This document shows positions 8,277 to 28,914 of a stretch of 64,000 bases of DNA, piece by piece. Numbering within the stretch: the first letter of the stretch is position 1; the number at the start of each line of letters is the position of its first letter. Both the position numbers and the translations under genes were made by a program. The stretch comes from Cyanobium sp. AMD-g (lineage in GTDB: Bacteria; Cyanobacteriota; Cyanobacteriia; PCC-6307; Cyanobiaceae): positions 620,001-684,000 of the forward strand of contig NZ_JAGQCW010000001.1 in the NCBI RefSeq assembly GCF_024346395.1. Reading direction: 5' to 3'. The notes beneath the pieces were generated by a model. It searched no databases, was not told the DNA's origin, and saw nothing but the letters and a program-made list of their open reading frames with translations.

Positions 8277-10202
8277 TCAGGTCAACACATGCCCTGAATC
8301 GATCTCCTGATGCATCCACATGCTCCGGTAAGCCCCTCCTGCTGCAAGCAGGCTGTTGTGGGTGCCGCGCTCAATCACCCGGCCTGCCTCCAGCACCAGG
8401 ATCTGATCAGCCCGCACGATCGTGCTCAGCCGATGGGCGATCACCAGCACCGTGTGGTTGCGCTCAAACCGCTCAATGGCCTCCTGCACCAGCCGCTCGC
8501 TCTGGGTATCGAGGGCACTGGTGGCCTCATCGAGGATCAGCAGCTCTGGATCACGCAGGATCGCTCTCGCCAGCGACAACCGCTGGCGCTGGCCCCCGCT
8601 CAGCCGGTAGCCCCGCTCCCCCACCAAGGTGTCATAACCGTGGGGCAGACTTTGGATAAAGTCGGCCGCCTGGGCAGCGCTGCAGGCAGCTTCGATTTGG
8701 GCCCTGCTCACACCTGGCGTGCCAAAGGCGACGTTTTCGGCAATGCTGTCGTTAAACAGGAAAGTGTCCTGGCTCACCACTCCCAGCCGATGCTGCCAGC
8801 TGGCCAACTCCAGTTGCTTGAGCGGCGAACCATCAATCAGGATCTGCCCCCTCGTGGGGTCATAAAGCCCGGTGATCAGATCGGCGATAGAACTCTTGCC
8901 AGCACCACTCTGCCCGACAAGAGCCAGCATCTGCCCCTTAGGCAGCGTGAAGGAAACGTTTCGCAAGGCCGGAGGCAGATCCGGTGAATACTGCAGGCTG
9001 ACGTCATCGAATTGGATCGCTTGATGAAGCACGACAAACGGCGTTCCGCGGATGCTACGAAATTGCTTCGTCTCTGGCGAAAGGATGTCGTTCAGCCTCT
9101 GAATCCGACCTTTGTTATCGGCCAGTGAATTCAGATTGATTGCCAAAATACTGATTCTTCCGTTGAGCTTCTGAAGGGCCAGTACAAACGTGGCCAGGCT
9201 GGGAAGTACATCGGTGCCACTGCCGCCCAAAAGCAACAGGCTCAGCGCCGCGATCAAAGCAATCGCCAAAATTGGCAAAAAGCTTGAAAATGGTCCCACA
9301 ACAGCCATTCGCCTTGCTTGGCCACGCAACTGCCTTTCCAGTTCCCCCATGCCTGCCCGCAGACGACTGTCGGCGGCGTCGAGTTGGCCGGTGCTATGCA
9401 GCAGGCGCAGACCCTGAAGATCTTCCGTGATGCGTCTGCTGATCGCTACCTGGGACTGGGTCACACCCATGGATCCAGCACGGATACGAGGCAGCAGGCG
9501 CTTTTGCACCAGTGTGATCAGCCCGCCCATGATCAGCACCGCCAGCAACAGCCAGGGGGAGATGCTCAGGAGCACCCCCAGATAGGTGGCACACAACAAC
9601 AGACCCACCAGCATCATGCTGGTTTCCTCAATCTGGACGCGTATCGCCTCGGGCCCCTGGGCGGCGTAGTCGGTGAGGTCACCAACCTTATAGTTGCTGG
9701 CGCAAGGAAAGCTCAGGCTCAACACCTGGCTGTGAATGCGGACCGTAACCAGCGCCCGGCAGCGAGCGGAAAAGTAGTCCACGCTAACCTGGTTGATGTA
9801 GCGACTGAGGCTCTGCATCGCCTGAAGCAGCACTGCCAGCGCCAGAAGGCCGAGAAACAGTGGCGTGGAAGGCAGCTGATTCAGCCATGCACCCACGGCC
9901 GGCATCCAGCCCAGCAAAGGGGCGCTGCCCCAGTTAAACGGCGTACCCGCCGGGGCCGAGAGCACCTCCACCGCCAGGAACACAACTCCCAAGGTGGCTC
10001 CCTCGCTGAAGGCACCCACAACATTGGTACCCAGATTGAGTGCGATCAGCCGCCACTGCTGGCGCGCCGTCTGGCGGATCAACTGGGCTGCGGGTTCCTG
10101 GCTGAGGAAAGGTTGCAGCAGCCATCCCAGCAAGAATGGTTTTGTAGGCGTAGAGGAAGTCAATCGTGATGGAGTTGGAGGAGGCGCTGAAGGTGGGGCC
10201 AT
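8277..10202 (-). CDS. ABC exporter, fused membrane and ATPase domains
   Basis: The product is 641 aa. Hydrophobic segments between roughly residues 50 and 340 form the six-helix exporter domain. The ATPase follows with Walker A GQSGAGKS (about 430-437), signature LSGGQ (about 534) and Walker B LLILDEATSALD (about 555), then an H-loop in IAHRLST. This is the MsbA/PglK half-transporter design, working as a homodimer. In a polysaccharide island it most likely flips a lipid-linked glycan or lipid, which is inference. It ends 338 nt from the IS21 remnant and is GC-richer than the glycosyltransferases, suggesting a different origin from them. Confidence 0.9.
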   Translation of the reverse strand: MAPPSAPPPTPSRLTSSTPTKPFLLGWLLQPFLSQEPAAQLIRQTARQQWRLIALNLGTNVVGAFSEGATLGVVFLAVEVLSAPAGTPFNWGSAPLLGWMPAVGAWLNQLPSTPLFLGLLALAVLLQAMQSLSRYINQVSVDYFSARCRALVTVRIHSQVLSLSFPCASNYKVGDLTDYAAQGPEAIRVQIEETSMMLVGLLLCATYLGVLLSISPWLLLAVLIMGGLITLVQKRLLPRIRAGSMGVTQSQVAISRRITEDLQGLRLLHSTGQLDAADSRLRAGMGELERQLRGQARRMAVVGPFSSFLPILAIALIAALSLLLLGGSGTDVLPSLATFVLALQKLNGRISILAINLNSLADNKGRIQRLNDILSPETKQFRSIRGTPFVVLHQAIQFDDVSLQYSPDLPPALRNVSFTLPKGQMLALVGQSGAGKSSIADLITGLYDPTRGQILIDGSPLKQLELASWQHRLGVVSQDTFLFNDSIAENVAFGTPGVSRAQIEAACSAAQAADFIQSLPHGYDTLVGERGYRLSGGQRQRLSLARAILRDPELLILDEATSALDTQSERLVQEAIERFERNHTVLVIAHRLSTIVRADQILVLEAGRVIERGTHNSLLAAGGAYRSMWMHQEIDSGHVLT

Positions 10203-12170: not shown

Positions 12171-13127
12171 TTAAAATACCTCATCTCGATACATCTTCCC
12201 CACAATCTCCCGCACCGTACGCTTGGATTGCCAGCCCAGATCAGCCGCAATGTGCTGGGGCTTCATGGCCGAATATTCCAGATCTGCCGGGCGTTTCAGC
12301 GCCTCCACCGACACCAGGTGCTCCGCCAGATCCAGATCCGCCGCTGCAAAGGCCTCCTGGGCAAATTGCCGCAGGGAGGTGGTGGTGCCAGAGGCGATCA
12401 GGTAGTCGCTCGGCGAATCAGCCTGCAGCATCAACGCCATCGCCTGCACATAATCAGGCGCCCAGCCCCAGTCGCGCCAGATGTCGAGGTTGCCCAGCTC
12501 AATCGTGCTGGCCAAGCCGGCCTTGATTGCCCGCACGCCTTCGATGATCTTCTGTGTCACAAACCGCTTCGGGCGCAGCGGTGATTCGTGGTTGGCCAGG
12601 ATGCCCGTACAGGCATGCATGCCGTAGGCCTCTCGATAAGTGGCCACCTGCCAGAACGCCGCTGCTTTGGCTACCGCATAGGGGCTGCGTGGCCGCAGCG
12701 GAGTGTCTTCCGTAGCGGGCTGATCACCCGTCTGGCCGAAGCACTCCGAACTGCCGGCACTGAAAAAGCGGATGCCGCCGCCCAGGTAGCGGATCACCTC
12801 CAGCAGGTTGAGCGTGGCCTCAGCGATCGACTCCATGCACTCCACCGGCTGATCAAACGACAGCCCCACGCTGGTTTGCCCCGCCAGGTTGTAGATCTCC
12901 TGAGGCTGGGCGCTGCTCACCACCTTCAGCACACTGCGGAAGTCGTTGGGTGCCAGCGAGAGCAGCTGAACATCAGCAGCCACGCCGAGCCGCTCCAGAC
13001 GGGATAGATCGGCCATCTGGGCGTCACGGCTGGTGCCCACCACCCGGTAGCCCGAGCTGAGAAGGTGATGGGCCAAATATGCGCCGTCTTGCCCGGTCAC
13101 ACCGGCGATCAGGGCGGTTTTGGCCAT
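12171..13127 (-). CDS. gmd: GDP-mannose 4,6-dehydratase
   Basis: The product is 318 aa, an extended short-chain dehydrogenase. It has the NADP-binding GVTGQDGAYLAHHLL at the N-terminus, a substrate block SAGSSECFGQ near residue 123, and the catalytic Y-x3-K in SPYAVAKAA near 150. [16 protein letters not shown] and DIWRDWGWAPDYVQAM are diagnostic GMD blocks. The enzyme makes GDP-4-keto-6-deoxymannose, precursor of fucose, rhamnose or perosamine sugars; no follow-on reductase or aminotransferase is in view. It is GC-richer than the glycosyltransferases and shares nearly identical sequence with a broken copy 2 kb away. Confidence 0.92.
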   Translation of the reverse strand: MAKTALIAGVTGQDGAYLAHHLLSSGYRVVGTSRDAQMADLSRLERLGVAADVQLLSLAPNDFRSVLKVVSSAQPQEIYNLAGQTSVGLSFDQPVECMESIAEATLNLLEVIRYLGGGIRFFSAGSSECFGQTGDQPATEDTPLRPRSPYAVAKAAAFWQVATYREAYGMHACTGILANHESPLRPKRFVTQKIIEGVRAIKAGLASTIELGNLDIWRDWGWAPDYVQAMALMLQADSPSDYLIASGTTTSLRQFAQEAFAAADLDLAEHLVSVEALKRPADLEYSAMKPQHIAADLGWQSKRTVREIVGKMYRDEVF

Positions 13128-13304: not shown

Positions 13305-14111
13305 TTAATCTTTTGGGATGGCTGTCCACTCGACCAACTCACCAGACGTAGACCCTTGCGGGAAAGATGAATATCCCATTGACTGCAAGAACTCTTGAGC
13401 CGCGTTAAGCGGAATCCCAAGTTGCCGCAATCGCGGTTTGTTTTGTTCAAAACAGACCTCTTTCACAACCTTTGCTTTGAAAAGTTTCTCGGAACCCATC
13501 AGCGCCCAAGCATCAGCCCCTTCAATATCGACCTTAAGAAGCGATATAGGCTTAGACGAGGAAACAACTTGATCAATTCGAACGACTTCGACGTCCACTC
13601 CTTCGCCTCCATTTCCAAATCCAAATCCAAATCCGCCCTAGCCAGTTTGCTCTACCGGCCCAAGACTAAACTTCATTGTACCGGATTCCTGGCCTGCGGC
13701 AACAGGGAAAACCTCTATTCTAGACTCCAAACCATTCTGCCTGATATTCCTATTCAAAATCGGGATATTTCTCGGGGAGGCTTCAAAGGCAACGCATCTG
13801 TTCTCCTTATTCAATGCAGCCCAGAGCAAAGAAAAGTATCCAAGGTTTGCGCCCACATCAACAAGAATGCCACCTCGTTGCGCCAGACGAGCAACGCGCT
13901 GTGTCAATCTAGACTCGTATACTCCAGTAAATGCAATAATGTCCGAGATAAGATCGCCAGGGACCAAGTCCATGAACACATCTGGAGCGTAACAAAGAGG
14001 GGCTGACTGGTACAGACTCTGATATCGATCGTGTTTGCCCAAGTAAAGCCTATAAAATGCGGAGAGCCTCAACGACTCTGGAACCAGTCTCAGCAACAAC
14101 GGTCTTTTCAT
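13305..14111 (-). pseudogene. FkbM-family methyltransferase interrupted by one amber codon
   Basis: Codons 1-157 (from 14111) include the SAM-binding GGILVDVGANLGYFSLLWAA and CVAFEASPRNIPILNRNI. A TAG stop follows at 13640-13638. The same frame continues without any shift through a glycine-phenylalanine repeat (GGFGFGFGNGGEG) into VDVEVVRIDQV, ISLLKVDIEGADAWALMG and the family C-terminus, ending at 13305. With the stop read through the protein would be 268 aa, normal for FkbM. The family methylates sugar hydroxyls. Either the gene is freshly inactivated, the amber is read through, or a GTG restart at 13598 gives a separate C-terminal piece. Confidence 0.85.
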
Positions 14112-14199: not shown

Positions 14200-14327
14200 A
14201 ATTTTGGCCGTAGCGATTCTTGGCCGCTCCAGCCGCGATAGATCCGGCAGCCCAAGCCGAGCTAGTGGTGGGCCAAGTAGGCACCGTCCTAGCCGGTGAC
14301 TCAGGCGATCAGGGCTGTCTTTGTCAT
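14200..14327 (-). pseudogene. gmd remnant, N-terminal part
   Basis: From the ATG at 14327 the minus strand reads MTKTALIA-stop-VTG-stop-DGAYLAHH-stop-L, which is the intact Gmd N-terminus (MAKTALIAGVTGQDGAYLAH) with three in-frame stops. Similarity to the intact gene continues weakly to about 14200 (the R-L-E-R region). It complements the C-terminal remnant at 10.2-10.8 kb: together they are the two ends of one older gmd lying on either side of the intact gene, in the same orientation. Confidence 0.8.
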
Positions 14328-14351
14328 CAGGGTTCTTTGTTGCTGTCGGCA

Positions 14352-14787: not shown

Positions 14788-15183
14788 TCAGCCGCTGAAG
14801 GGATCGATCAGCCCGATCGTGGTGTCACGGAAGTGGCGCCCGTTGCCCGTCGCCAGGCCGGCGCCATGGGCCAGGGCGATACCGGCGATCAACGTGTCGC
14901 GCAGATCCACAGGGCGGCCCAGGGCCTTGCGCCGGGCCGCCAACTGGGCAGCCTTCTGGGCCGCTACCCCATCGAGCGGGGCGACGCGCTCCTGGATCAG
15001 CTGTTCCATGAGCTGGTTGAGGCCCTGCTCCAAGGCCTGGCGGCGCTTGCCATCCGGGTGAATCGCTGTCCCGTAGCGGAGTTCAAACAGCACCACACTG
15101 GGCAGCCATACCTGCCGCACGTCCTGATCATCCAGCCATCGCAGCATCACGGCCGACACGACGTTGGTGTTAAGCAGGATCAC
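14788..15183 (-). CDS. PIN-domain (FitB/VapC-like) toxin with altered active site
   Basis: The product is 131 aa, normal for a PIN ribonuclease toxin. Family blocks are present: MILLNTNVVSA, LPSVVLFELRYGTA, RRKALGRPVDLRDTLIAGIA, HGAGLATGNGRHF and LIDPFSG. The family normally has Asp in MILLDTN and Asp in NVRDF; here these are Asn (residue 5) and His. The Glu of FELRYG and the Asp of RDTLIA remain. PIN enzymes need their acidic residues to bind the metal that cuts RNA, so the toxin is probably weak or dead. It overlaps the antitoxin stop by 4 nt (ATGA), the usual layout. Confidence 0.82.
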   Translation of the reverse strand: MILLNTNVVSAVMLRWLDDQDVRQVWLPSVVLFELRYGTAIHPDGKRRQALEQGLNQLMEQLIQERVAPLDGVAAQKAAQLAARRKALGRPVDLRDTLIAGIALAHGAGLATGNGRHFRDTTIGLIDPFSG

Positions 15184-15386
15184 GGCTCAAAAAGCCCTGG
15201 GGCCGGGGCCTCGCCGCGCCATTCAGTGATCGGCTCCTCGAGCTCTGCCTCCGCAAACAGCGCGGCCATGCGATGACCCAGGCCCTGCGGGTGTTCGGCA
15301 GAGGCCTGCTCACTGGCCAGGGCCTGACGCTGGATCAGCCTGGCCTCCTCCTCCTCCATGCTGCGGCCATGGCGCTGGGCTTCCAC
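15180..15386 (-). CDS. FitA/VapB-like antitoxin, N-terminus apparently lost
   Basis: From a GTG at 15386 the frame gives 68 aa with AQRHGRSMEEEEARLIQRQA, the second helix of a ribbon-helix-helix antitoxin of the FitA type, followed by an acidic toxin-binding tail (AELEEPITEWRGE). The usual first strand (about 15-20 residues, the DNA-contacting ribbon) is not readable upstream in any frame; the in-frame upstream codons give no similar sequence. The start is therefore uncertain and autoregulation may be lost. It is coupled to the toxin by a 4-nt overlap. Confidence 0.7.
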   Translation of the reverse strand: MEAQRHGRSMEEEEARLIQRQALASEQASAEHPQGLGHRMAALFAEAELEEPITEWRGEAPAPGLFEP

Positions 15387-15523: not shown

Positions 15524-16699
15524 ATGGCACAGAGCCTGCCAACGCACGCCTTGCTGTCGCTCCAGAGCGTCCTGCGGCAGGTGATGGCGTGCGAGGGAGG
15601 CAGGGCCGCCGATCCGGTGATCGTGGCTGATCCGGCGGCCTTTGAAGCTGCCGTGGAGAGGCATCGCCTGGCGGTCGTGCTGGCGCCCTACGCGGAACGG
15701 CTGGGGTTACCGCCAGACACCACAGCCATTCTGGCGAGGCAGGCCCGCCAAACCCAGATGGCGGCGATGCCCCTGATCGCCCTGGCTCGCGAGGCCATGG
15801 CAGCCCTGGCCTCGGCAGGGGTTCCAGTGCTGCTGTTCAAGGGCCCAGCGCTGGCCGTTCAGACCACCGGCCAGGACACCAACCGCGGCAGCGGTGATCT
15901 CGATCTGTTCGTGGCGTCTGGGGATCTTGCTGAGGCCCGCACGGCCCTGGAGTCCATCGGTTTCCGGCAGCCCCCCGGACTGTTTCCCCGAGAGCTGGAA
16001 TCGTTCTGGGGGCGCTACGCCCGCTGGGCGTCCTATGAACTGAGCCTGCTTCGCGGCAGCGAGCTCATTGAGCTGCACTGGAGTCTGGCCCCCTGCCGTG
16101 CCCCGCTGCCCGGCTTCCCATCAGCCTGGCAGGAACGCCAGTGGATCAACCTCGGCGGCCAAGCCTTTCCCACCCTCAGCCGGCGCCATGCCTTCCTGCA
16201 TGCCTGCGCCCATGCCGCCAAGGATCAGTGGATGAGCCTGCGCAGCCTGGTGGACATCGATCGGCTGGCACGACTGCAACCGCTGGACGAGCAGGCGCGC
16301 CTGCGGCGTCTGGCCTGCGTCAGGCTCAGCTGCGCTGCCGCCCACCAAGCCACCGGGAGCCCCTATCTCCTGGCCTACACCGACCGGAACCGGCGGGACT
16401 GCCAATGGGCCTTGAACCGCGCCCAATGGGCCCAAATGCGGAGTGAGCTCCTGGAAGCCGATGGCCCCTGGCGGCCGTGGCATTGGACCGGCACCATTCA
16501 CCGCCTGGCCCGGCTCAGTCCATCACCGCTGGACTGGCTGCGGACGCTGGCGTTTTTCAGCCTTCCGCCAAGGGCGTTCAGCAATCCGGAAACCGACCAG
16601 GACCTTGGGCTGGCAGGGATGGTTCGCGCCCGCTGCGGGCACCTGCGGGAGCGACTGCGGGAAACCAGGCGCCATCCATTGAATCGCCATCAACTCTGA
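15524..16699 (+). CDS. Nucleotidyltransferase-family protein of lasso-peptide loci (PF14907 type)
   Basis: The product is 391 aa. The nucleotidyltransferase-like region spans roughly residues 85-160 with VPVLLFKGPALA and the acidic motif GSGDLDLFV, then IELHWSL and RHAFLHACAHAAKDQWMSLR further on. This is the layout of the 'putative nucleotidyltransferase' family that recurs in lasso and related RiPP clusters. Its role in those clusters is not settled; modification of the peptide by transfer of a nucleotide or similar group has been proposed. GC-rich. It ends 10 nt inside the convergent RRE gene. I assign it to the locus from position and family. Confidence 0.78.
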   Translation: MAQSLPTHALLSLQSVLRQVMACEGGRAADPVIVADPAAFEAAVERHRLAVVLAPYAERLGLPPDTTAILARQARQTQMAAMPLIALAREAMAALASAGVPVLLFKGPALAVQTTGQDTNRGSGDLDLFVASGDLAEARTALESIGFRQPPGLFPRELESFWGRYARWASYELSLLRGSELIELHWSLAPCRAPLPGFPSAWQERQWINLGGQAFPTLSRRHAFLHACAHAAKDQWMSLRSLVDIDRLARLQPLDEQARLRRLACVRLSCAAAHQATGSPYLLAYTDRNRRDCQWALNRAQWAQMRSELLEADGPWRPWHWTGTIHRLARLSPSPLDWLRTLAFFSLPPRAFSNPETDQDLGLAGMVRARCGHLRERLRETRRHPLNRHQL

Positions 16700-17043
16700 A
16701 CGTTGGAGACCCCAACCAACCCCTGGGCCAGCAAGTCGTGGCCGAGCTTGAGCAGATCCCGCTCCAGCTGAGCCGCCTCCACCGCGTACTCCTGCAGCAT
16801 CTGATCCCTGATTTCGGCCAGGGATTGCCCAGCCAGCATCAACTCCCACATCCGCGCCCCCACCGGATCGAGGCCGTAGTAGGTGCCCGTGGCCAGATGC
16901 AGGATTACCGTTTCATCACCCACCCGGCGGTCCATGACATCGGAGGGCACCGTGAAGCGATCGGAGAGCTGCAGGGGCAGGCTGGCGGCAGAGGCCTCAT
17001 GCATGGGATGGGAGGACATGGGGGCCTGAGAAATGTCCTGCAT
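16690..17043 (-). CDS. PqqD-like RRE protein (lasso-peptide B1)
   Basis: The product is up to 117 aa; starts at 17043, 17019 or 17004 are all possible. The PqqD fold is clear: SDRFTVPSDVMDRRVGDETV, then ILHLATGTYYGLDPVGARMW and a helical end ERDLLKLGHDLLAQGLV. Such domains are RiPP recognition elements that bind the leader of the precursor and hand it to the B2 protease. It is transcribed away from the B2 gene with only 20 nt between the two start codons, and is convergent with the nucleotidyltransferase. This split orientation is unusual, since B1 and B2 are normally adjacent and collinear. Confidence 0.88.
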   Translation of the reverse strand: MQDISQAPMSSHPMHEASAASLPLQLSDRFTVPSDVMDRRVGDETVILHLATGTYYGLDPVGARMWELMLAGQSLAEIRDQMLQEYAVEAAQLERDLLKLGHDLLAQGLVGVSNVQS

Positions 17044-17063: not shown

Positions 17064-17516
17064 ATGAACAGTTGGCGACACAAGGCAGACCGCTTCCAGC
17101 AACTTGATGGACCTTCGCGCCGTCTGGTACTGGGCAGCGCTGTGCTGCTACCGCTCTTCTGGGCACGTGTGAAGCTGCTGGGCCGCTGCAGCCTTGGCCA
17201 GCACCACGCTGACGGTGCCATGAGGCTTCAAGGCGACGCTGCTTCGCTTGATGCTGCCGCCCACATGGGACGGCTCGTGAACAGCGTCGCCCACTTCGTG
17301 CTTCCAGCCGACAACTGCCTCACCCGTTCGCTCTATCTGCAGTGGCTGCTGCGGCGGCGCGGCATTCTCGGCGATCTGCTCCTCGGGGTGCAGCTCGAGA
17401 ACGGCCAGCTCCGTGCTCACGCTTGGGTGGAAGTGGCCGGCTATCCGGTCAATGACGCTCAGGATGTGGCCGAACGCTTTCTGCCGTTCGAGCGATCCCT
17501 TTCCGCACAGCCATGA
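17064..17516 (+). CDS. Lasso-peptide leader peptidase (B2, transglutaminase-like)
   Basis: The product is 150 aa. The catalytic Cys is in ADNCLTRSLYLQWLLRRRG, the His in LRAHAWVEVAGYPVND, and the Asp closes that motif, giving the Cys-His-Asp triad of PF13471-type enzymes. It cuts the leader from the precursor two residues after the conserved Thr, working with the RRE protein and the cyclase. The ATG follows AGGAGG at 17056-17061, an unusually short spacing of 2 nt. The last 4 nt overlap the cyclase start (ATGA), so the two are translationally coupled. GC-rich. Confidence 0.92.
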   Translation: MNSWRHKADRFQQLDGPSRRLVLGSAVLLPLFWARVKLLGRCSLGQHHADGAMRLQGDAASLDAAAHMGRLVNSVAHFVLPADNCLTRSLYLQWLLRRRGILGDLLLGVQLENGQLRAHAWVEVAGYPVNDAQDVAERFLPFERSLSAQP

Positions 17517-19447
17517 GCGGTGTCTTCGGGCTGTTCAACCAGGACGGCAAGCCCGTCGAGCGCAGCGAGATGGGCGCCATGGCGTCGCTGCTCGAGCGGC
17601 GCGGGCCCGATCGCACGGCGTTCTGGAGCGAAGGACCCGTGGGCCTGGGGCTCACCCTGCTCACCACCACGCCGGAGCTTGCCTTTGAGCCCCAGCCCGT
17701 GCGCCACGGCGCCAGCGGCTGCGTGATCGTGGCCGACGTGCGCCTCGACAACCGCGCGGAACTGCTGGCCGCCTTGGATCTCGCCGATCGCGGCCAGATC
17801 CTTGGCGATGCCGGCCTGATCCTGGAGGCCTACCTCGCCTGGGGCGAAGCCTGCCTGGATCACTTCCTGGGCGATTTCGCCTTCATGCTCTGGGATCCCC
17901 GCCACCAGAAGCTCTTCGGTGCCCGTGATCACTTCGGCCTGCGGCCCTTCTACTACCACCACACCCCTGGAAGATTCTTCGCCTTCGCCTCCGAACCCAA
18001 GGCGATCCTGGTGCTGCCGCAGACGCCCTATCGCATCAACGAGGCCCGGATCGCAGATTTTCTGGTCAACCAGCTGGAAGGCATCGACAAGACCTGCACC
18101 TTCTTCGAGGAGGTGTTCCGCCTCCCTCCAGCCCACTGCGTGAGTGTGACTCCAGAGAGGATGGCCATCCGCCGCTACTGGACCCTGGAGCCGGGCGAGG
18201 AATTGCGGCTGCCGTCGGATGGGGCCTACGCCGAGGCCTTCCTGGAGGTGTTCACCAAGGCGGTGGGCTGCCGCCTGCGCAGCCATGGCCCCGTGGGCTC
18301 GATGCTCAGCGGCGGCATGGACTCAGGCTCGGTGGTGGCTGTGGCCAAGGAGATCCTGGCCGAGCAGGGCCGCGGCCCGCTGCAAACTTTTTCCGCCGTG
18401 GGGCCCGACCCCGAAACCTGCGTCGAAACGCGCGCGATTCACGCGGCGCTCACGATGAGCGGGCTGGATCCCACACTGATCTGCTACGAGCACCTGGAGG
18501 AGCTGATGCCGGAGCTGGGTGAGCTGTCTTGGAATCTGGATGAGCCGTTTGACAACCACATGACTTTGGTGCGGGCGATGTATCTGGCGGCGCACCGCAA
18601 GGGCCTGAAGGTGCTGCTGGATGGGGTGGGCGGTGATGTGGTGTTGAGCGAGGGTAGTTACATTGCACGCCTGATTCGTCGCGGGCGCTGGAGGACTGCT
18701 TATCGCGAGGCGGTAGGGCAGGAAAGGTTCTGGGGCCAAGCCTATCCTGCGTGGCATGAGCTTTACAAGGGAGCGAAGGCTGCGTATTCCCCTCCTTCAA
18801 TTCGAAGTGTACACCGGAAACTTTTCAATAGCAGCCGCCAAAGCAAACACTTATTCCAAAATATCAGAGAATCATCAATTAGTCAGAATTTCGCAAAGCG
18901 AGCCCACTTAGAAGAACGCCTGATCTCATTGGAGAAACTTGAAAGTGCAGATATTAGATTGTCGTATTCAAAAGAACGAGCTCAAAGCATTGACCATCCA
19001 TATCTTACCGTCGGAAGAGAGCGCTATGATCGCACAGCTTCACCACTTGGCGTGGAGCCCAGGGATCCATTTCTTGATAGGCGACTAGTTATTTTCTGTC
19101 TGTCATTACCAGGGAATCAAAAGGTGTATAGAGGCTGGCCCAAAATTCTTCTCCGACGCTCCATGCTGGGCACACTACCTAATCAAGTTTGCTGGCGCAA
19201 AGGCAAGCAACACCTTGGCTGGTCTTTTACGCAGAAACTGTTCACGCCCATAGCGGAAGGAGACGACTTCGCCATGAGACATCAATCCAATCCACTTCAC
19301 CACTATGTGAACCCTCCTTTGGATATTGACAGCTCTCCTCACTGCGGAGAAATCCCAACGAAACCCAGCAATATCTCAACCGCCTTCGCCCACAAGCACC
19401 TGGCCGCTTGGCTAAGAAATCACGACGCGCGACCAAGGGGGGCTTGA
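17513..19447 (+). CDS. Lasso-peptide cyclase (asparagine-synthetase-like, C protein)
   Basis: The product is 644 aa. The N-terminal half is a class II glutamine-amidotransferase-like domain (GVFGLFNQDG; LLERRGPDRT; FMLWDPRHQKLFGARDHFGL), but the nucleophile Cys after Met1 is Ser, so no glutaminase activity is expected. The C-terminal ATP-binding domain has the PP-loop LSGGMDSGSV at about 264-273 and LLDGVGGDVVLSEG at about 365. The enzyme adenylates the Asp or Glu side chain of the core and closes the macrolactam. From about 18780 on (last 220 residues) base composition turns abruptly AT-rich, while the first 420 residues are GC-rich. The stop codon lies inside the promoter of the precursor gene. 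Confidence 0.93.
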   Translation: MSGVFGLFNQDGKPVERSEMGAMASLLERRGPDRTAFWSEGPVGLGLTLLTTTPELAFEPQPVRHGASGCVIVADVRLDNRAELLAALDLADRGQILGDAGLILEAYLAWGEACLDHFLGDFAFMLWDPRHQKLFGARDHFGLRPFYYHHTPGRFFAFASEPKAILVLPQTPYRINEARIADFLVNQLEGIDKTCTFFEEVFRLPPAHCVSVTPERMAIRRYWTLEPGEELRLPSDGAYAEAFLEVFTKAVGCRLRSHGPVGSMLSGGMDSGSVVAVAKEILAEQGRGPLQTFSAVGPDPETCVETRAIHAALTMSGLDPTLICYEHLEELMPELGELSWNLDEPFDNHMTLVRAMYLAAHRKGLKVLLDGVGGDVVLSEGSYIARLIRRGRWRTAYREAVGQERFWGQAYPAWHELYKGAKAAYSPPSIRSVHRKLFNSSRQSKHLFQNIRESSISQNFAKRAHLEERLISLEKLESADIRLSYSKERAQSIDHPYLTVGRERYDRTASPLGVEPRDPFLDRRLVIFCLSLPGNQKVYRGWPKILLRRSMLGTLPNQVCWRKGKQHLGWSFTQKLFTPIAEGDDFAMRHQSNPLHHYVNPPLDIDSSPHCGEIPTKPSNISTAFAHKHLAAWLRNHDARPRGA

Positions 19448-19471
19448 CTTTTTCCTAGTGCATGCTAAGAT
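19444..19471 (+). promoter_or_regulatory. Sigma-70 type promoter for the lasso precursor
   Basis: A TTGACT box at 19444-19449 and TAAGAT at 19466-19471 are 16 bp apart, close to the consensus. The -35 box overlaps the cyclase stop codon. A transcript would begin near 19478, giving a short leader before the ATG at 19494. This explains how the small precursor could be made in excess over its enzymes. Confidence 0.6.
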
Positions 19472-19493
19472 TCGTTTCTATGTTCTTAGCAAA

Positions 19494-19676
19494 ATGAATC
19501 CCGCCAACAAGCACCAAGATCTTGCTCAGCCAATTAAATACGTTAGCCCTACACTAACTTGTTTTGGGACTGTCTCGGAATTAACCGCAGCGGGCTCTAG
19601 AGGTGCCACTGAAGCGAATAATGGGGGCCAATGCCAAGGGAGCGGAACAACCGTTGTAACTAGAGCTCGGTGCTGA
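19494..19676 (+). CDS. Lasso-peptide precursor
   Basis: I choose the ATG at 19494 (60 aa) because the promoter excludes the in-frame GTG at 19458. The leader holds the exact lasso motif Y-x2-P-x-L-x3-G-x5-T, seen as YVSPTLTCFGTVSELT. The B2 site lies two residues after that Thr, so the core should start Ala-Gly-Ser-Arg-Gly-Ala-Thr-Glu. Glu8 is in position to close an eight-residue ring with Ala1. The 28-residue core carries two cysteines in the tail (core positions 15 and 28, the last residue) and two arginines near the end (RARC). AT-rich, directly after the cyclase. No matching peptide was recalled. Confidence 0.88.
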   Translation: MNPANKHQDLAQPIKYVSPTLTCFGTVSELTAAGSRGATEANNGGQCQGSGTTVVTRARC

Positions 19677-20052
19677 CCACAGCAGTTTTGGCGTGATTCT
19701 CTTTGAGAATATTACCCCCAATTGTGAGTCATCTCAGAAACTGACTGAAAGACCGCATTTCCTCTTTTCTACTTGTAGGTGACGCGAAAGTATTATAAAT
19801 AGCAACTCTGGCTATTCAATGGACATTCCTAGACTAGAATAATTTCGCTTTACTTACTGCGTCTTGTGCAGCTATCCTAGATCGTCTATAGCCTGTTTGT
19901 CGATGCTATATCAGTCTACCGGTTTTCTTCCTTTGGTTTCCATGCATTTATCCCCAGCGGTAATCTTGCAAATCATCGCACACCGCGACTCTAAGCCATT
20001 CCAAAGATCGCTTGCATATGTTTTCCATCCGTAGATTCGATCGGCATCTGCC
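19677..20052 (+). other. AT-rich spacer between precursor and kinase genes
   Basis: About 375 nt, clearly AT-rich. I looked for a second precursor with a Y-x2-P-x-L motif and saw none. Frames on both strands are short and not protein-like. The start of the next gene has no strong ribosome site, so the spacer may hold its promoter. Nothing firmer can be assigned. Confidence 0.45.
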
Positions 20053-20910
20053 ATGTCATTCGTAGCCGCATGCCCTCGTAAACAGGACCGTATCCCAACG
20101 ACAGCCTTCAATGAGTGGAGATTGCCTGATGACACCCTTTGGTCAGAATTCTTTTATACGAACAGCGGCTTCTTAATACGTTTTCCGGGCCTCGTAGATT
20201 TCGAGGTTACTCGGAAAGGGGAATCTGTAACTGCTCATCCGGTTGCTGGAGTGGGCAAAACAACCGTTGAACACTTGTACCAAAATCAAGTGCTTCCTCT
20301 GATGTTGAGCACCCAAGGGTTTCTCGTATTCCACGCCAGCTCAGTTGCTGTTGGGAAAAGTTCTGTTGCATTCGTGGCAGAATCAGGGCGAGGGAAGTCC
20401 ACTCTTGCAGGGAGTTTTGCGATCAATGGTCATTCATTTCTCACCGACGATGGCCTGATCCTGGATCCGAACGCGAGCGGCTACAATGTGAGGCCCAGCC
20501 ATCCATCCATCCGCCTCTGGGACGATTCGTCTGAGGCGCTGATTCACCCCGGTGCCGCCACCTCGCCGGCCATCTCCTATTCGTCCAAGTCGCGATTTCT
20601 GGCCGGGGATCAAGTGCGCTTCTGCTCTGAGCCCCAACCCCTCCAGTGCGTGTTTTTCCTCGGCGAGGGGGCGGTCTCTGAGATCACGATCGAACCCATG
20701 CCACCAGCCCAGGCCCTGATCGAATGGGTCAAGCACTCCTTCCTGCTCGACATCGAAGATCAGCCACGTCTGGCCTCCCACTTCGACGACGTCGCCCGCC
20801 TGGCCGCCCAGCCGTTTCACTACCGCCTTGATTACCCCAGGCACTACGGCCTTCTGCCCCAGTTGCAGGCCGCCATCGTGAGCCATCTGGCCAGCCTCAC
20901 CGGCGTCTGA
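20053..20910 (+). CDS. HPr-kinase-like protein, putative lasso-peptide kinase
   Basis: The product is 285 aa. It has a P-loop AESGRGKSTLAGSF near residues 114-127, preceded by FLVFHASSVAVG, and FLTDDGLIL near 139, the layout of the HprK C-terminal catalytic domain as found in lasso loci. In paeninodin biosynthesis such an enzyme phosphorylates the C-terminal Ser of the precursor. Here the predicted core ends in Cys, so the target residue is open (Thr20, Thr21, Thr24 or Ser18 are the hydroxyl residues in the tail). The first 135 codons are AT-rich; after about 20450 composition becomes GC-rich. It overlaps the convergent ABC gene by 14 nt. Confidence 0.85.
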   Translation: MSFVAACPRKQDRIPTTAFNEWRLPDDTLWSEFFYTNSGFLIRFPGLVDFEVTRKGESVTAHPVAGVGKTTVEHLYQNQVLPLMLSTQGFLVFHASSVAVGKSSVAFVAESGRGKSTLAGSFAINGHSFLTDDGLILDPNASGYNVRPSHPSIRLWDDSSEALIHPGAATSPAISYSSKSRFLAGDQVRFCSEPQPLQCVFFLGEGAVSEITIEPMPPAQALIEWVKHSFLLDIEDQPRLASHFDDVARLAAQPFHYRLDYPRHYGLLPQLQAAIVSHLASLTGV

Positions 20911-22540
20911 ACGGCGCCGGCCGTATCACCACCGCCGCCTGCGCCACCAGCTCCGGGTCGTGGCTGGCCACCAGCACCAGCCGCTCGCGGCTGCGCTCCA
21001 GCACCAGCTGTCGCACCGTGGCCGCCGCCTGCGCATCCAGAAACGCCGTCGGTTCATCCAGCAGCTCCACCGGCTGATCCAGCAGCCAGGCCCGCAGCAG
21101 CCCCAGCCGGTGGATCTCACCGCCAGAGAAACAATCCACCGCCAGGTTCAGCGGTTCGTGCAGCCCCTCGGGCCGCCCCAGCAGCGCCTCCAGTCCCAGC
21201 CGCTCCAGCCAGGGCACCAGCAACGCCTCGCGCACCGCCCGTTCCGGCACCCGGCCCAGCAGCAGGTTGTCGGCCAGGCTGCCTTCAAACAACACCGCCC
21301 CCTGGGGCGCATAGGCCACCAGCGTCCTCCAGGCGGCGGCACCGACGCTGCCCGTCAGCGCCACAGGCGCGCTGGAGCCCTCCACCTGCAGCTGCCATTG
21401 GCTGCCCTCCTCGGCCAGCAATCCCGCCACCCGATCCAGCAGCGTGCTCTTGCCGCTGCCCGATGGCCCCACCAGCACCACCAAAGCGCCGCGCCGCAGG
21501 TCCACTTCCGGCTGGCCCGGGCCCTGCCAGCGCACCGCCTCCAGCTGCTCTTCGCGCGCCAGCGGCCGGGTGGCGGCGGCCGCCAGCACCGGCGGCCCCA
21601 GGCGCTCTCGCAGCTCCCGCAGCGCCTGATAGCCCGGCAGGGCCCACAGGCAGGCGCGCCGGCTGCTGATCACACCCCCCAGGGCGCCGGCCGCCCGGTA
21701 GGCCAGCAGCAGCACCGTGGCCACCGCCGCCGGCTCCAGCCCCGTGCCGCCCAGCCCCAGCCACAGCGCCACCACCAGCACCACCAGCCAGTCGCGCAGG
21801 GCGCCGAACACCGCCTGGCGCCGCAGCGAGCGGCGGGCATTACGGCGATAGTCCCGCGCCGCAGCGCCGAATCGCTCCAGCAGCCACGGCTCGGCCGCCG
21901 CCGCCCGCACCGCCTTGAGGCCATGCAGCCCATCGCCCACGATGCTCTGCAGCGCCGCATTCAGGCGCGTCTGCAGCTCGCCCAGCTGCCAGGCGCCGGA
22001 GCGTTGCGCCAGCCCCGCCAGCGCCGCCGCCACCAGCCCCAGCAGCAACGGCGCCGCCTGGCCCCGGCCGGCCAGCACCACGCCTGTGGCGTAGATCAGC
22101 AGGCTGATCAGGCTCTGCAGCAGCTGCAGGCCCCGGTCCAGCGCATAGACGCTGGTGTCGATGTCGTCCATCAGCAGGCCCAGCAGCTCGCCCCGGCCCA
22201 CCTGCTCCAGGCGCAGGCTCGAGGCATACAGCACCCGGCGGAGCAGGTCGCTGCGCAGCCGGTCGGTGAGGGCACTGTTCAGCCACTCCTGGAGCACGGC
22301 GATGCCCACCTGCAGCAGTCCGCGCAGCGCCATCAGCGCCACCAGCAGCCCCAGCAGCTGGCGCAGATCCAGCGGCAGCGTCGGCAGCGGCAACCCGGCC
22401 GCACCGCCCGCCCCCAGCAGCACCCCCACCGCCAGGCCCAGGCCGGCCACCTCCACCCCACTCGCCAGCAGAGCCAGCCCCGCCAGCAGCAGGGTGTGCC
22501 CCCATCCCGCCTCGCGGGCCAGGGCGATCCAGAGCCTCAC
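20897..22540 (-). CDS. ABC exporter, candidate lasso-peptide exporter (D protein)
   Basis: I start it at the GTG 22540, which overlaps the upstream HepT-like stop (GTGA); the product is 547 aa. A Leu/Ala-rich membrane domain covers about residues 1-310. The ATPase has Walker A GPSGSGKSTLL, a shortened signature FSGGE and Walker B VELLDEPTAFLDAQ, then the H-loop ASHDPEL. Very GC-rich. It lies convergent to the kinase gene at the locus edge, and lasso loci normally encode an ABC exporter for release and immunity, so export of the peptide is the best guess. It is, however, co-directional and coupled with the MNT-HepT pair. Confidence 0.82.
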   Translation of the reverse strand: MRLWIALAREAGWGHTLLLAGLALLASGVEVAGLGLAVGVLLGAGGAAGLPLPTLPLDLRQLLGLLVALMALRGLLQVGIAVLQEWLNSALTDRLRSDLLRRVLYASSLRLEQVGRGELLGLLMDDIDTSVYALDRGLQLLQSLISLLIYATGVVLAGRGQAAPLLLGLVAAALAGLAQRSGAWQLGELQTRLNAALQSIVGDGLHGLKAVRAAAAEPWLLERFGAAARDYRRNARRSLRRQAVFGALRDWLVVLVVALWLGLGGTGLEPAAVATVLLLAYRAAGALGGVISSRRACLWALPGYQALRELRERLGPPVLAAAATRPLAREEQLEAVRWQGPGQPEVDLRRGALVVLVGPSGSGKSTLLDRVAGLLAEEGSQWQLQVEGSSAPVALTGSVGAAAWRTLVAYAPQGAVLFEGSLADNLLLGRVPERAVREALLVPWLERLGLEALLGRPEGLHEPLNLAVDCFSGGEIHRLGLLRAWLLDQPVELLDEPTAFLDAQAAATVRQLVLERSRERLVLVASHDPELVAQAAVVIRPAPFRRR

Positions 22541-22833
22541 TCGGCCATCAGTTCGTCCAGCCACGCCTGGAAACGGCCCAGATCCGCCTCGATCCCCGGC
22601 CACATGGCGATGGCCCGCTGGAGCAACTGCCGCACCCGATCCGCCTCCAGTTCGTAGGCGTAGAGGTGGCGCAGGGCAGCCGAGTCGAACGTTTCACTGC
22701 TGGCGCTGCCTGCTTGCATGCGGCCTTCGAGGCGCTCCAGGCTGCCAACCAGCTCTGAAAGCTTGTCGCGCTCGATGCGCAGATCGAGCTGCAGATCGCT
22801 CAGTTGCCGCTGCCAGGGATCAAGGGAGGCCAT
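22537..22833 (-). CDS. HepT-like protein, copy 1, internally deleted
   Basis: The product is 98 aa from the ATG at 22833 that overlaps the MNT stop (TGATG), as in copy 2. HepT RNases are normally about 140-150 aa with an R-x4-6-H-x-Y active site. Here the N-terminal helix (LDLRIERDKLSELVGSLERL) joins straight to the C-terminal part LRHLYAYELEADRV, so the middle of the protein is missing and the Arg now sits next to the His. It may still fold as a partner of MNT, but RNase activity is doubtful. It leads directly into the ABC exporter gene. Confidence 0.7.
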   Translation of the reverse strand: MASLDPWQRQLSDLQLDLRIERDKLSELVGSLERLEGRMQAGSASSETFDSAALRHLYAYELEADRVRQLLQRAIAMWPGIEADLGRFQAWLDELMAE

Positions 22834-27349: not shown

Positions 27350-28012
27350 TCAGAGCGGCCATTGGACTTGGGCAGTGAGGTCTTTCAGAAATTGCTTAGA
27401 TTCGGCGGAACCATTGAGCAAAAAAGCGTTGTTGGTGGAAACAAGTAAACAAGAATAGGAAGGTTTAGGGGAAGAAGGAAGGCGCCCTTTGATCAATGTT
27501 CTCAAGAAATCTTGTTGCCTTCTACCACTGATGTCCCGGAGTTTATTAACACTGAAAGCGATAGCCCCACTTTTCGTTAGGCATGTCTGGGAACTGATTA
27601 CTCCTTGAATGCGGCCAATGGCGATTTGCTGGGGTTTCGCTTGTAATGAGAGCAGTTTTGCATCACGCAGATACAACTCAGGCATGCTTCTGGTCAACTT
27701 GGCTGGATCAAGAGAATCCCAGGAGGCTAATGGTGTGAGCAGCAGCCATCCACTCGCTTTGGCAAAGCGCTGGCTAGATCCGGTTGCGTCATTACGCTGC
27801 AGCATGGTGGGCCTCTGAGGCGCAGTGGCGATGGAGTGTTCAGCTGATCGCCATGCTAAGGGCATGCTTTGAGGATTTGGTGGGGCAGGGAGTGGTGGTT
27901 GCTGCGGAAAACCAACCTGTTGAACGATGGCTAATCCAGCAGCGCCACACAACACAGCAAGCCACCGACGTTGTTGATCACGGTTAAGCTGTGTTGTTGA
28001 AGTTCTGCTCAT
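27350..28012 (-). CDS. Cyanoexosortase A system-associated protein
   Basis: The product is 220 aa. After a basic N-terminus it has one membrane helix (WLAVLCGAAGLAIVQQVGF) and a proline-rich linker, then an extracytoplasmic domain ending SYSCLLVSTN and FLKDLTAQVQWPL. This anchor-plus-soluble-domain architecture directly after the exosortase matches the family known to accompany cyanoexosortase A. Its exact function is unknown; a role in substrate handling is likely. It overlaps the exosortase stop by 4 nt (ATGA), so the two are translationally coupled. Confidence 0.75.
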   Translation of the reverse strand: MSRTSTTQLNRDQQRRWLAVLCGAAGLAIVQQVGFPQQPPLPAPPNPQSMPLAWRSAEHSIATAPQRPTMLQRNDATGSSQRFAKASGWLLLTPLASWDSLDPAKLTRSMPELYLRDAKLLSLQAKPQQIAIGRIQGVISSQTCLTKSGAIAFSVNKLRDISGRRQQDFLRTLIKGRLPSSPKPSYSCLLVSTNNAFLLNGSAESKQFLKDLTAQVQWPL

Positions 28013-28914
28013 GCGGCAAGTTCCCGATCGAGCAGTGTCAAGTAAATCCAGCCCGCCAGAAAGGCAGCTACTAGGGAAAACAGCAGCCCTCCGGTGCCAT
28101 GAAAGAAGTCAAAAGCTGGAATTCCACTTTTGTTTGGCCAGGTAGTTAAGTAGGCCAACAGGGTAATTCGGAGGACATTAATTAAAACTGCAGTGAGGAT
28201 GGCTCCAATTAGTGCCTTAAGAAGATTGGATCGATTATCCAGCGGGAAAACAAAATGAAAGATCACTATCATACTCATCGAAAAGACCAGCTGCTCAACT
28301 CCATTGCAAGGGGTTTCTACAGTCACGCCGCCCGAGCTGAGTAATATCTGTTTGCCGCTTAGGCTGCTCTGGAATCCGAGACCATAAAGAAATACCCAAG
28401 TGAGTAGGGCAGTGAGCCGGTTTAAGATAGGTGACGTTAGAATTTCGATTGCTCCGCTTAGTGGGAGCAGGAGGGAGATAAGCAGAGGTTTTTTAAACAG
28501 TTGCCAGTTCCCTGCAGGGCGGCTTAGCAAAGCCAATGCAACCAAGATTACTGGGAAAATTAGATATTTGATATAGCCATCCTGCTCATTAATGAGCCAG
28601 GGTGAAAGGCTCAATAGAAAAGCCAGAACAAGAGATCCGAAAATAAAACTGGCCGGGCTGGGTTTCGGCCATAGGTTGTGTAATTGATCTTCTAATGTGA
28701 TGAAAACACCCAGCCAAAGGAGAAGATTGAAAATCTGCAAGTCTAGAGTTTGATGAGTAAACCATAGAATGCTGGAATTCCAGCAAAAAAGGATGGCAGC
28801 AAGAACGAGGTAAAGAGATCTGCGGTTGCTGATATGCCGCAGAAATTTGTTTGCCCTCGTGATGGCAAATACTAAGCTAGTTTGAATTTGGAGCTTAGAG
28901 TTTGTAGATGCCAT
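28009..28914 (-). CDS. Cyanoexosortase A
   Basis: The product is 301 aa with about eight membrane helices. The exosortase catalytic triad is complete and ordered: Cys in GGVTVETPCNGVEQLV (near 200), Arg in LINVLRITLLAY (near 245), and His in FDFFHGTGGLLFSL (near 270). Exosortases are membrane cysteine transpeptidases that cut the PEP-CTERM-like tail of exported proteins at the periplasmic face. Candidate substrates with VPGPLP/VPAPLP tails lie at 24.6, 25.9 and 32.3 kb. It overlaps the HpsJ-like gene by 20 nt and the associated gene by 4 nt, forming a three-gene minus-strand operon. Confidence 0.9.
   Translation of the reverse strand: MASTNSKLQIQTSLVFAITRANKFLRHISNRRSLYLVLAAILFCWNSSILWFTHQTLDLQIFNLLLWLGVFITLEDQLHNLWPKPSPASFIFGSLVLAFLLSLSPWLINEQDGYIKYLIFPVILVALALLSRPAGNWQLFKKPLLISLLLPLSGAIEILTSPILNRLTALLTWVFLYGLGFQSSLSGKQILLSSGGVTVETPCNGVEQLVFSMSMIVIFHFVFPLDNRSNLLKALIGAILTAVLINVLRITLLAYLTTWPNKSGIPAFDFFHGTGGLLFSLVAAFLAGWIYLTLLDRELAA

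Follow-up and report, generated by a model that had tools for sequence, protein, structure and literature searches.

A cyanobacterial gene cluster for a predicted class IV-like lasso peptide, with an apparently mosaic cyclase gene

The lasso gene cluster and its precursor

The window analysed here is a 64-kb stretch of the 3.12-Mb genome of Cyanobium sp. AMD-g. Profile searches showed that it carries a complete lasso cluster in the order N-B1-B2-C-A-K-D, where A is the precursor gene. N (15524..16699, plus strand) encodes a nucleotidyltransferase-like protein of 391 aa (NTP_transf_5, Pfam PF14907, E 1.5e-35). B1 (16690..17043, minus strand) lies on the opposite strand just 5' of B2 and encodes a PqqD-like leader-binding protein of 117 aa (PF05402, E 2.7e-17), which the lasso_PqqD models match below cut-off. 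B2 (17064..17516, plus strand) encodes a leader peptidase of 150 aa (Transglut_core3; NF033537 lasso_biosyn_B2, 71.2 bits, cut-off 33) and is overlapped by the cyclase gene C (17513..19447, plus strand), the 644-aa product of which is a lasso macrolactam synthetase (NF033535 lass_lactam_cya, 542 bits, cut-off 525). K (20053..20910, plus strand) encodes an HPr-kinase-related peptide kinase of 285 aa (TIGR04352, E 1.1e-9, below cut-off), and D (20897..22603, minus strand), convergent with K, encodes an ABC exporter of 568 aa assigned by profile matches. The nearest relative with the cluster was Synechococcus sp. CCY 0621 (genome G012, locus L003), which belongs to the same genus and whose exporter is 93% identical to that of the window.

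No oxidoreductase family was detected among the cluster genes tested by profile search, and no RNA family was found in 18500-21000 at gathering scores. The possibility that the exporter is an unrelated housekeeping gene of the genus was rejected, as homologues (E <= 1e-60) were present in just 12 of 42 genus genomes, in two of which (G014 and G017) they sit beside B2-like genes. The spacer between A and K was also considered as the remains of the CCY 0621 methyltransferase genes and this was rejected, with no match at E <= 10; nothing else matched the spacer better than E 2.2.

Several features were observed around the cluster. On the minus strand, a methyltransferase gene (13305-14111) is apparently split into 13638-14111, with the methyltransferase domain, and 13305-13598, with an FkbM domain, and the two ORFs flank a run of CCAAAT repeats near 13,615-13,640. 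At 14250-14330 lies what looks by eye like a decayed copy of the first part of the GDP-mannose 4,6-dehydratase gene (12171-13127, minus strand), possibly a recombination remnant upstream of the lasso cluster. The PIN-domain protein encoded at 14788-15183 (minus strand) is overlapped by a small ORF without family match (15180-15386), a possible toxin-antitoxin pair beside the cluster. An exosortase-like membrane protein is encoded at 28009-28914 (minus strand).

The precursor ORF (19494-19676, plus strand) starts 46 bp after the end of the cyclase gene and encodes 60 aa followed by a stop, with the translation MNPANKHQDLAQPIKYVSPTLTCFGTVSELTA/AGSRGATEANNGGQCQGSGTTVVTRARC (leader/core). Translation, alignment, and motif scan delimited a leader of 32 residues (19494..19589, plus strand) of the form Y(-17)xxPxL...T(-2), with Tyr(-17), Pro(-14), Leu(-12), and Thr(-2) counted from the expected cut. 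This spacing is the one reported for B1 recognition and leader removal in the accessible text of PMC10368454. The strict motif Y..P.[LIVM]...G....[LIVMF]T occurred once in the six frames of the window, at the precursor, whereas 200 first-order Markov surrogates contained it 0.015 times on average, which ruled out a chance ORF. The only NCBIfam models that matched the precursor at E <= 1 were lasso_cyano (15.7 bits, cut-off 33) and lasso_leader_L3 (15.2 bits, cut-off 19), both under cut-off. An alternative in-frame GTG lies upstream at 19458, so that the start codon is ambiguous and the core unaffected. A promoter-like TTGACT-16-TAAGAT with TG (19444..19471, plus strand, consensus 9/12) lies 5' of the precursor gene, a weak signal given three such sites in the window against 1.2 expected. 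The gene content and motifs are thereby established: the leader has YxxPxL and Thr(-2), the core has an acidic residue within positions 7-9 (Glu8), and the genes for B1, B2, and the cyclase adjoin the precursor. We regard it as nearly certain that 19494-19676 encodes a lasso peptide precursor. Its predicted anatomy, that of an ordinary lasso precursor and a known kind of peptide, is well supported.

Core, related precursors, and tail cysteines

The core AGSRGATEANNGGQCQGSGTTVVTRARC (19590..19673, plus strand) has 28 residues, with a predicted Ala1-Glu8 ring, Cys15 and Cys28 in the tail, and Ser3 as a candidate phosphosite. Glu8 is its sole acidic residue, and Cys28 is C-terminal, 20 residues past Glu8. 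The original prediction had described a Thr followed by one residue, the core, Cys15, and a C-terminal Cys, and the translation agreed with it in every detail, including its claims that the core holds no second Glu or Asp and that both Cys lie in the tail. An Ala1-Glu8 macrolactam, which it had also proposed, is the only ring open to this core and is very likely. Comparison with related precursors likewise argues for its cut two residues after the Thr.

In an alignment of five precursors, those of loci L003, L004, L005, and L059 shared with the window the leader Tyr, Pro, Leu, Gly, Leu, and Thr (5/5), and all five cores have Gly2, Ser or Thr at position 3, and a penultimate Arg; this conservation is established. 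The acceptor Glu is residue 9 of the L005 and L059 cores and residue 8 of the other three. Ser/Thr3 was found in two, and a penultimate Arg in one, of 17 further lasso loci, of which 16 came from the phylum search and one was G849.

The locus on the Antarctobacter heliothermus plasmid pSMS3-2 (L059) has the precursor at 9960-10142 (plus strand), which is absent from the annotation of the record and matched the window precursor with E 4e-8 in a pair comparison. Its core SGSQQIQTETTTGSGCSGNPNRNRC has exactly two Cys, both in the tail, and ends RNRC where the window ends RARC. It thus resembles the window in its two tail Cys, RxRC end, SGS start, and kinase and nucleotidyltransferase genes, whereas a nine-residue ring is predicted for it and its cyclase and kinase are 46% and 30% identical to those of the window. 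The CCY 0621 locus shares the order N-B1-B2-C-A ... K-D, and residues 1-400 of its cyclase are 91% identical to the window, but it has two methyltransferase genes between A and K, and its core SGTGDQRESPGNAPATKLPRA lacks Cys. Its N protein was only 31.5% identical to that of the window (106/336 positions), despite the conserved B1 adjoining. One methyltransferase of this locus (L003:9247-10413, plus strand) has matches of the PrmA and PRMT kinds and, at its C-terminus (residues 339-381), a weak resemblance to PqqD; the penultimate Arg of the core might be its methylation target.

At E <= 1e-80, a cyclase of this type was present in 2 of 42 genus genomes, including the source genome, and at E <= 1e-70, in 3 of 400 genomes sampled from the family, one of which (G536) has a cyclase only 36% identical to that of the window. 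A wider sampling for close relatives added two of 210 genomes, with only distant cyclases (36% and 38%); samples of 219 and 219 genomes gave no further relative, and none was found on viral contigs. Apart from CCY 0621, the closest cyclases in a pattern-based scan of genome contigs came from MAGs labelled Chromatiaceae (71%), Desulfonatronospira (60%), and Pirellulaceae (55%). Together with the cyclase on the Antarctobacter plasmid (46%), these matches point to horizontal spread.

In G536 (locus L060), B1, B2, K, and D were 72%, 62%, 61%, and 83% identical to the window, while the cyclase reached 35%, so that this third cluster too diverges most in the cyclase. Behind the lasso cyclase gene of this locus sits a gene (L060:5860-6366, minus strand) in which a lasso-type precursor, YERPQLQVYGSVSSLTQ / GGAGTMNEGQS..., runs into a Peptidase_S74 (chaperone of endosialidase) domain (E 5.4e-8). 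A search for literature pairing a lasso peptide with peptidase S74 found none.

We then counted the cysteines of related cores. Forty-two loci (38 phylum regions around B2 or cyclase matches and L060, L061, L062, and L070) were scanned with a regular expression, which gave cores with Asp/Glu at positions 7-9 in 18; the 24 loci without such a core were left out, and L060 was dropped since its single Cys lies in the fused domain. With the window, L003, L004, L005, and L059, the census comprised 22 loci with one core each. The Cys count was zero in 15 and two in seven, with no singleton, and every Cys lay past residue 9. Under a Poisson distribution of the same mean, the chance of no singleton in 22 is about 1e-4, the loci being not fully independent; L072 and L083 have sister cyclases, and with one of them omitted the chance is 3e-4. 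A further core (L015), outside the census, has two Cys and no acid at positions 7-9. An even Cys count fits what a disulfide requires, without showing one.

The original prediction had put forward a disulfide between the two tail Cys. This proposal is now better grounded, by the distant two-Cys RxRC core and by a Cys count that is zero or two and never one in 22 loci, but the bridge is still a prediction. With no aromatic and few bulky residues in the core, the lock would be the Cys15-Cys28 disulfide. A class IV-like bridge, with one Cys pair and both members outside the predicted ring, is fairly probable. The prediction had cited this class as known from LP2006, which is not its sole example; according to the extracts of a review (PMC9266682), pandonodin and the felipeptins belong to it as well.

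Divergence of the centre of the locus

An AT-rich, diverged block extends from 18740 to 20457, with edges approximate to about 50-100 bp, and covers cyclase residues from about 410 to 644, the precursor, the spacer, and the first 135 or so kinase codons. Compared with CCY 0621, the cyclase was 91% identical over residues 1-400 (365/400) and 54% identical over residues 401-580 (97/180). Seven cyclases were compared in pairs: the distance ratio of the two parts was 6.8 between the window and CCY 0621 and lay within 1.2-2.1 in the remaining 20 pairs. In blocks of 30 codons, the DNA identity was 0.78-0.98 up to 18,682, dropped to 0.63 in the block that starts at 18,683, and was 0.40-0.64 thereafter, and the third-position GC of the window followed the same course (0.70-0.97, 0.63, and 0.30-0.59), while that of CCY 0621 stayed at 0.70-0.90 to about 19,310. 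On the other side, identical bases in the kinase gene numbered 21-30 per 45-base block as far as 20,412, rose to 34-35 over the two blocks that follow, and reached 40-43 from 20,503 onward, and the third-position GC of the window kinase stepped from 0.47 to 0.80 at 20,458. The region 20,233-22,549 was 90.7% identical to CCY 0621 overall.

In the tree of the cyclase N-half, the window and CCY 0621 grouped with full support, and a grouping of L003 with L004 was rejected (p 1.4e-4). The C-half tree did not contain the window and CCY 0621 group, a pair that the AU test does not reject (p 0.242; 0.176 in another tree). The cyclase C-half, precursor, and kinase N-half look as if they had been exchanged as one block, because the block is AT-rich and far more diverged from CCY 0621 than both flanks, and the simplest reading of the sequences would be an exchange of the locus centre by recombination in the conserved flanks. 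Rapid divergence of the centre would also have to explain the GC step. Counter to an exchange, the kinase identity recovers across about 90 bp and not at a single base. CCY 0621 has its own AT-rich stretch, over its precursor and first methyltransferase, so low GC alone is no mark of recent arrival, and CCY 0621 rather than the window may be the altered partner. No donor of the C-half was found among the cyclases compared, and three direct repeat pairs were found, none at the block edges. In the cyclase model (mean pLDDT 57.3), residues 371-644 scored under 50, so that the breakpoint is not placeable on the structure.

These patterns suggest, with somewhat more doubt than confidence, that the locus is built for exchange, with a fixed chassis flanking a replaceable specificity block. 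On the cyclase side, the chassis would comprise B1, B2, and the ATP-binding half of that enzyme; on the far side, it would comprise the exporter and the C-terminal, catalytic half of the kinase. The specificity block would comprise the cyclase C-half, the precursor, tailoring genes, and the kinase N-half. Homologous recombination in the chassis would then replace the peptide and, with it, the halves of the enzymes that recognise it.

The kinase, maturation, and alternative readings

The kinase has the conserved His, Gly, Lys, Ser, and Asp residues of the BsfK type, with His94, Gly112, Gly114, Lys115, Ser116, Asp132, and Asp133 invariant in the nine kinases aligned. Its predicted structure (pLDDT 84.4) matched PEP carboxykinase and HPr kinase folds with modest TM-scores, and a sequence search against the PDB gave no match at E <= 1. 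In the window and CCY 0621, Ala replaces the first Gly of the P-loop; in BsfK, a G163A exchange, judged by eye to be equivalent, greatly lowered solubility (PMC10368454). Since the kinase gene lies 376 bp downstream of the precursor and its product could add a phosphate (+80 Da), the mass forecast in the original prediction, the core mass minus 18 for the ring and minus 2 for the disulfide, is incomplete. The calculated monoisotopic masses are 2708.247 for the linear core, 2690.236 with the ring closed, 2688.220 with the disulfide as well, and 2768.187 when one phosphate is added to that form.

BsfK is a lasso kinase whose substrate lacks a C-terminal Ser, and the same text reports that it phosphorylates Ser3 (PMC10368454). 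The BsfA/BsfK system of Bradymonas sediminis resembles the window in its HPr-kinase-like kinase encoded with B1, B2, and C, the lack of a C-terminal Ser, the Ser at core position 3, and the predicted eight-residue ring, and it differs in its leader Ile(-2), where the window has Thr(-2), and in a Gly1-Asp8 rather than Ala1-Glu8 ring; the mature Bsf peptide was likewise not detected (PMC10368454). Ser3 was named as the phosphosite by this analogy, and phosphorylation there is possible, though not the favoured expectation. In support, the window has Ser3 and no C-terminal Ser, and Ser/Thr3 occurs in all five cores of the group against two of the 17 others. Counter to Ser3, L060 has Ala3 though its kinase is 61% identical, and kinase-like genes were found in 16 of the 17 other loci (L070-L107), only two with Ser/Thr3.

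We infer the following maturation scheme. The PqqD-like B1 would bind the leader, the kinase probably phosphorylates a Ser or Thr of the precursor ahead of cutting, with Ser3 in the ring as the leading candidate, and B2 would cleave between Ala(-1) and Ala1. The cyclase would join Ala1 to the Glu8 side chain around the threaded tail, and the Cys15-Cys28 disulfide may form after export with no dedicated enzyme, aided by Arg25 and Arg27. As a whole, a lasso peptide with an Ala1-Glu8 ring, a tail disulfide, and a kinase acting on a precursor Ser/Thr is the best explanation and a likely one.

Three other readings were weighed against it. An Ala1-Glu8 lasso peptide without the tail disulfide, in which the Cys stay reduced, bind metal, or pair intermolecularly, would fit the lack of an oxidoreductase family among the tested cluster genes, the spacing of 13 residues between Cys15 and Cys28, and the Cys-free cores of L003, L004, and L005, three relatives whose existence implies that a disulfide is dispensable for this cyclase type. 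We consider it unlikely, as it sits poorly with a Cys count of zero or two in 22/22 loci and with the recurrence of the two-Cys RxRC end on the plasmid; moreover, class IV clusters have no shared extra gene, and an enzyme-free bridge is conceivable according to the extracts of the review (PMC9266682). In those extracts and the accessible text of PMC13352647, LP2006, pandonodin, and the felipeptins resemble the window in one Cys pair outside the ring and in having no common extra bridge gene, but their clusters hold A-D genes, with a putative oxidoreductase in the felipeptin case, whereas the window, from a cyanobacterium, adds a kinase and a nucleotidyltransferase, and its disulfide is predicted only.

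Phosphorylation of the C-terminal residue in the manner of paeninodin, with Cys28 replacing Ser, is suggested by the kinase gene, as in the paeninodin cluster, and by the kinase and nucleotidyltransferase genes, as in that of pseudomycoidin (PMC9266682, extracts); a C-terminal Cys also resembles Ser in shape. The phosphosite of both peptides is a C-terminal Ser, whereas the window ends in Cys and its four relatives in C, A, P, and P, although such a kinase is encoded at each of the five loci. A kinase acting on a C-terminal Ser was accordingly rejected, with that residue in none of five aligned precursors, and the version with Cys28 is highly improbable. The candidate precursors beside Paenibacillus/Peribacillus kinases (L007-L011) do end in Ser, in 5/5 loci. 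Only three of the 17 other cores end in Ser and one in Thr; with few Ser ends despite kinases in 16 of these loci, the C-terminal-Ser rule fails for most. Finally, the cluster could have recombined recently or be decaying and make nothing, its chimaeric cyclase and kinase mismatching the precursor. The identity and GC steps inside the cyclase and kinase genes and the occurrence of the cyclase type in just two of 42 genus genomes would agree with this, but every frame is open, the cyclase scores above its curated cut-off, and the kinase catalytic residues and precursor motif are intact, which makes it rather improbable.

Among the matches listed in our literature search, from which subscription literature was mostly outside scope, neither this cluster nor an exchange of cassettes within a lasso cyclase gene was reported. 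A product that matches the prediction would be a class IV-like lasso peptide of a Synechococcus-like cyanobacterium, with a kinase in the cluster, and the zero-or-two Cys count suggests that cyanobacterial clusters may commonly encode lasso peptides with a bridged tail. The mosaic matters more than the peptide itself. If the exchange reading is true, the lasso cyclase is a natural two-part chimaera with the C-half setting core specificity; a functional chimaera of this enzyme, joined within the synthetase domain, may already exist in nature, the precursor having moved along with the C-terminal half. The mosaic thus bears on which cyclase half reads the core, a practical question for lasso engineering.
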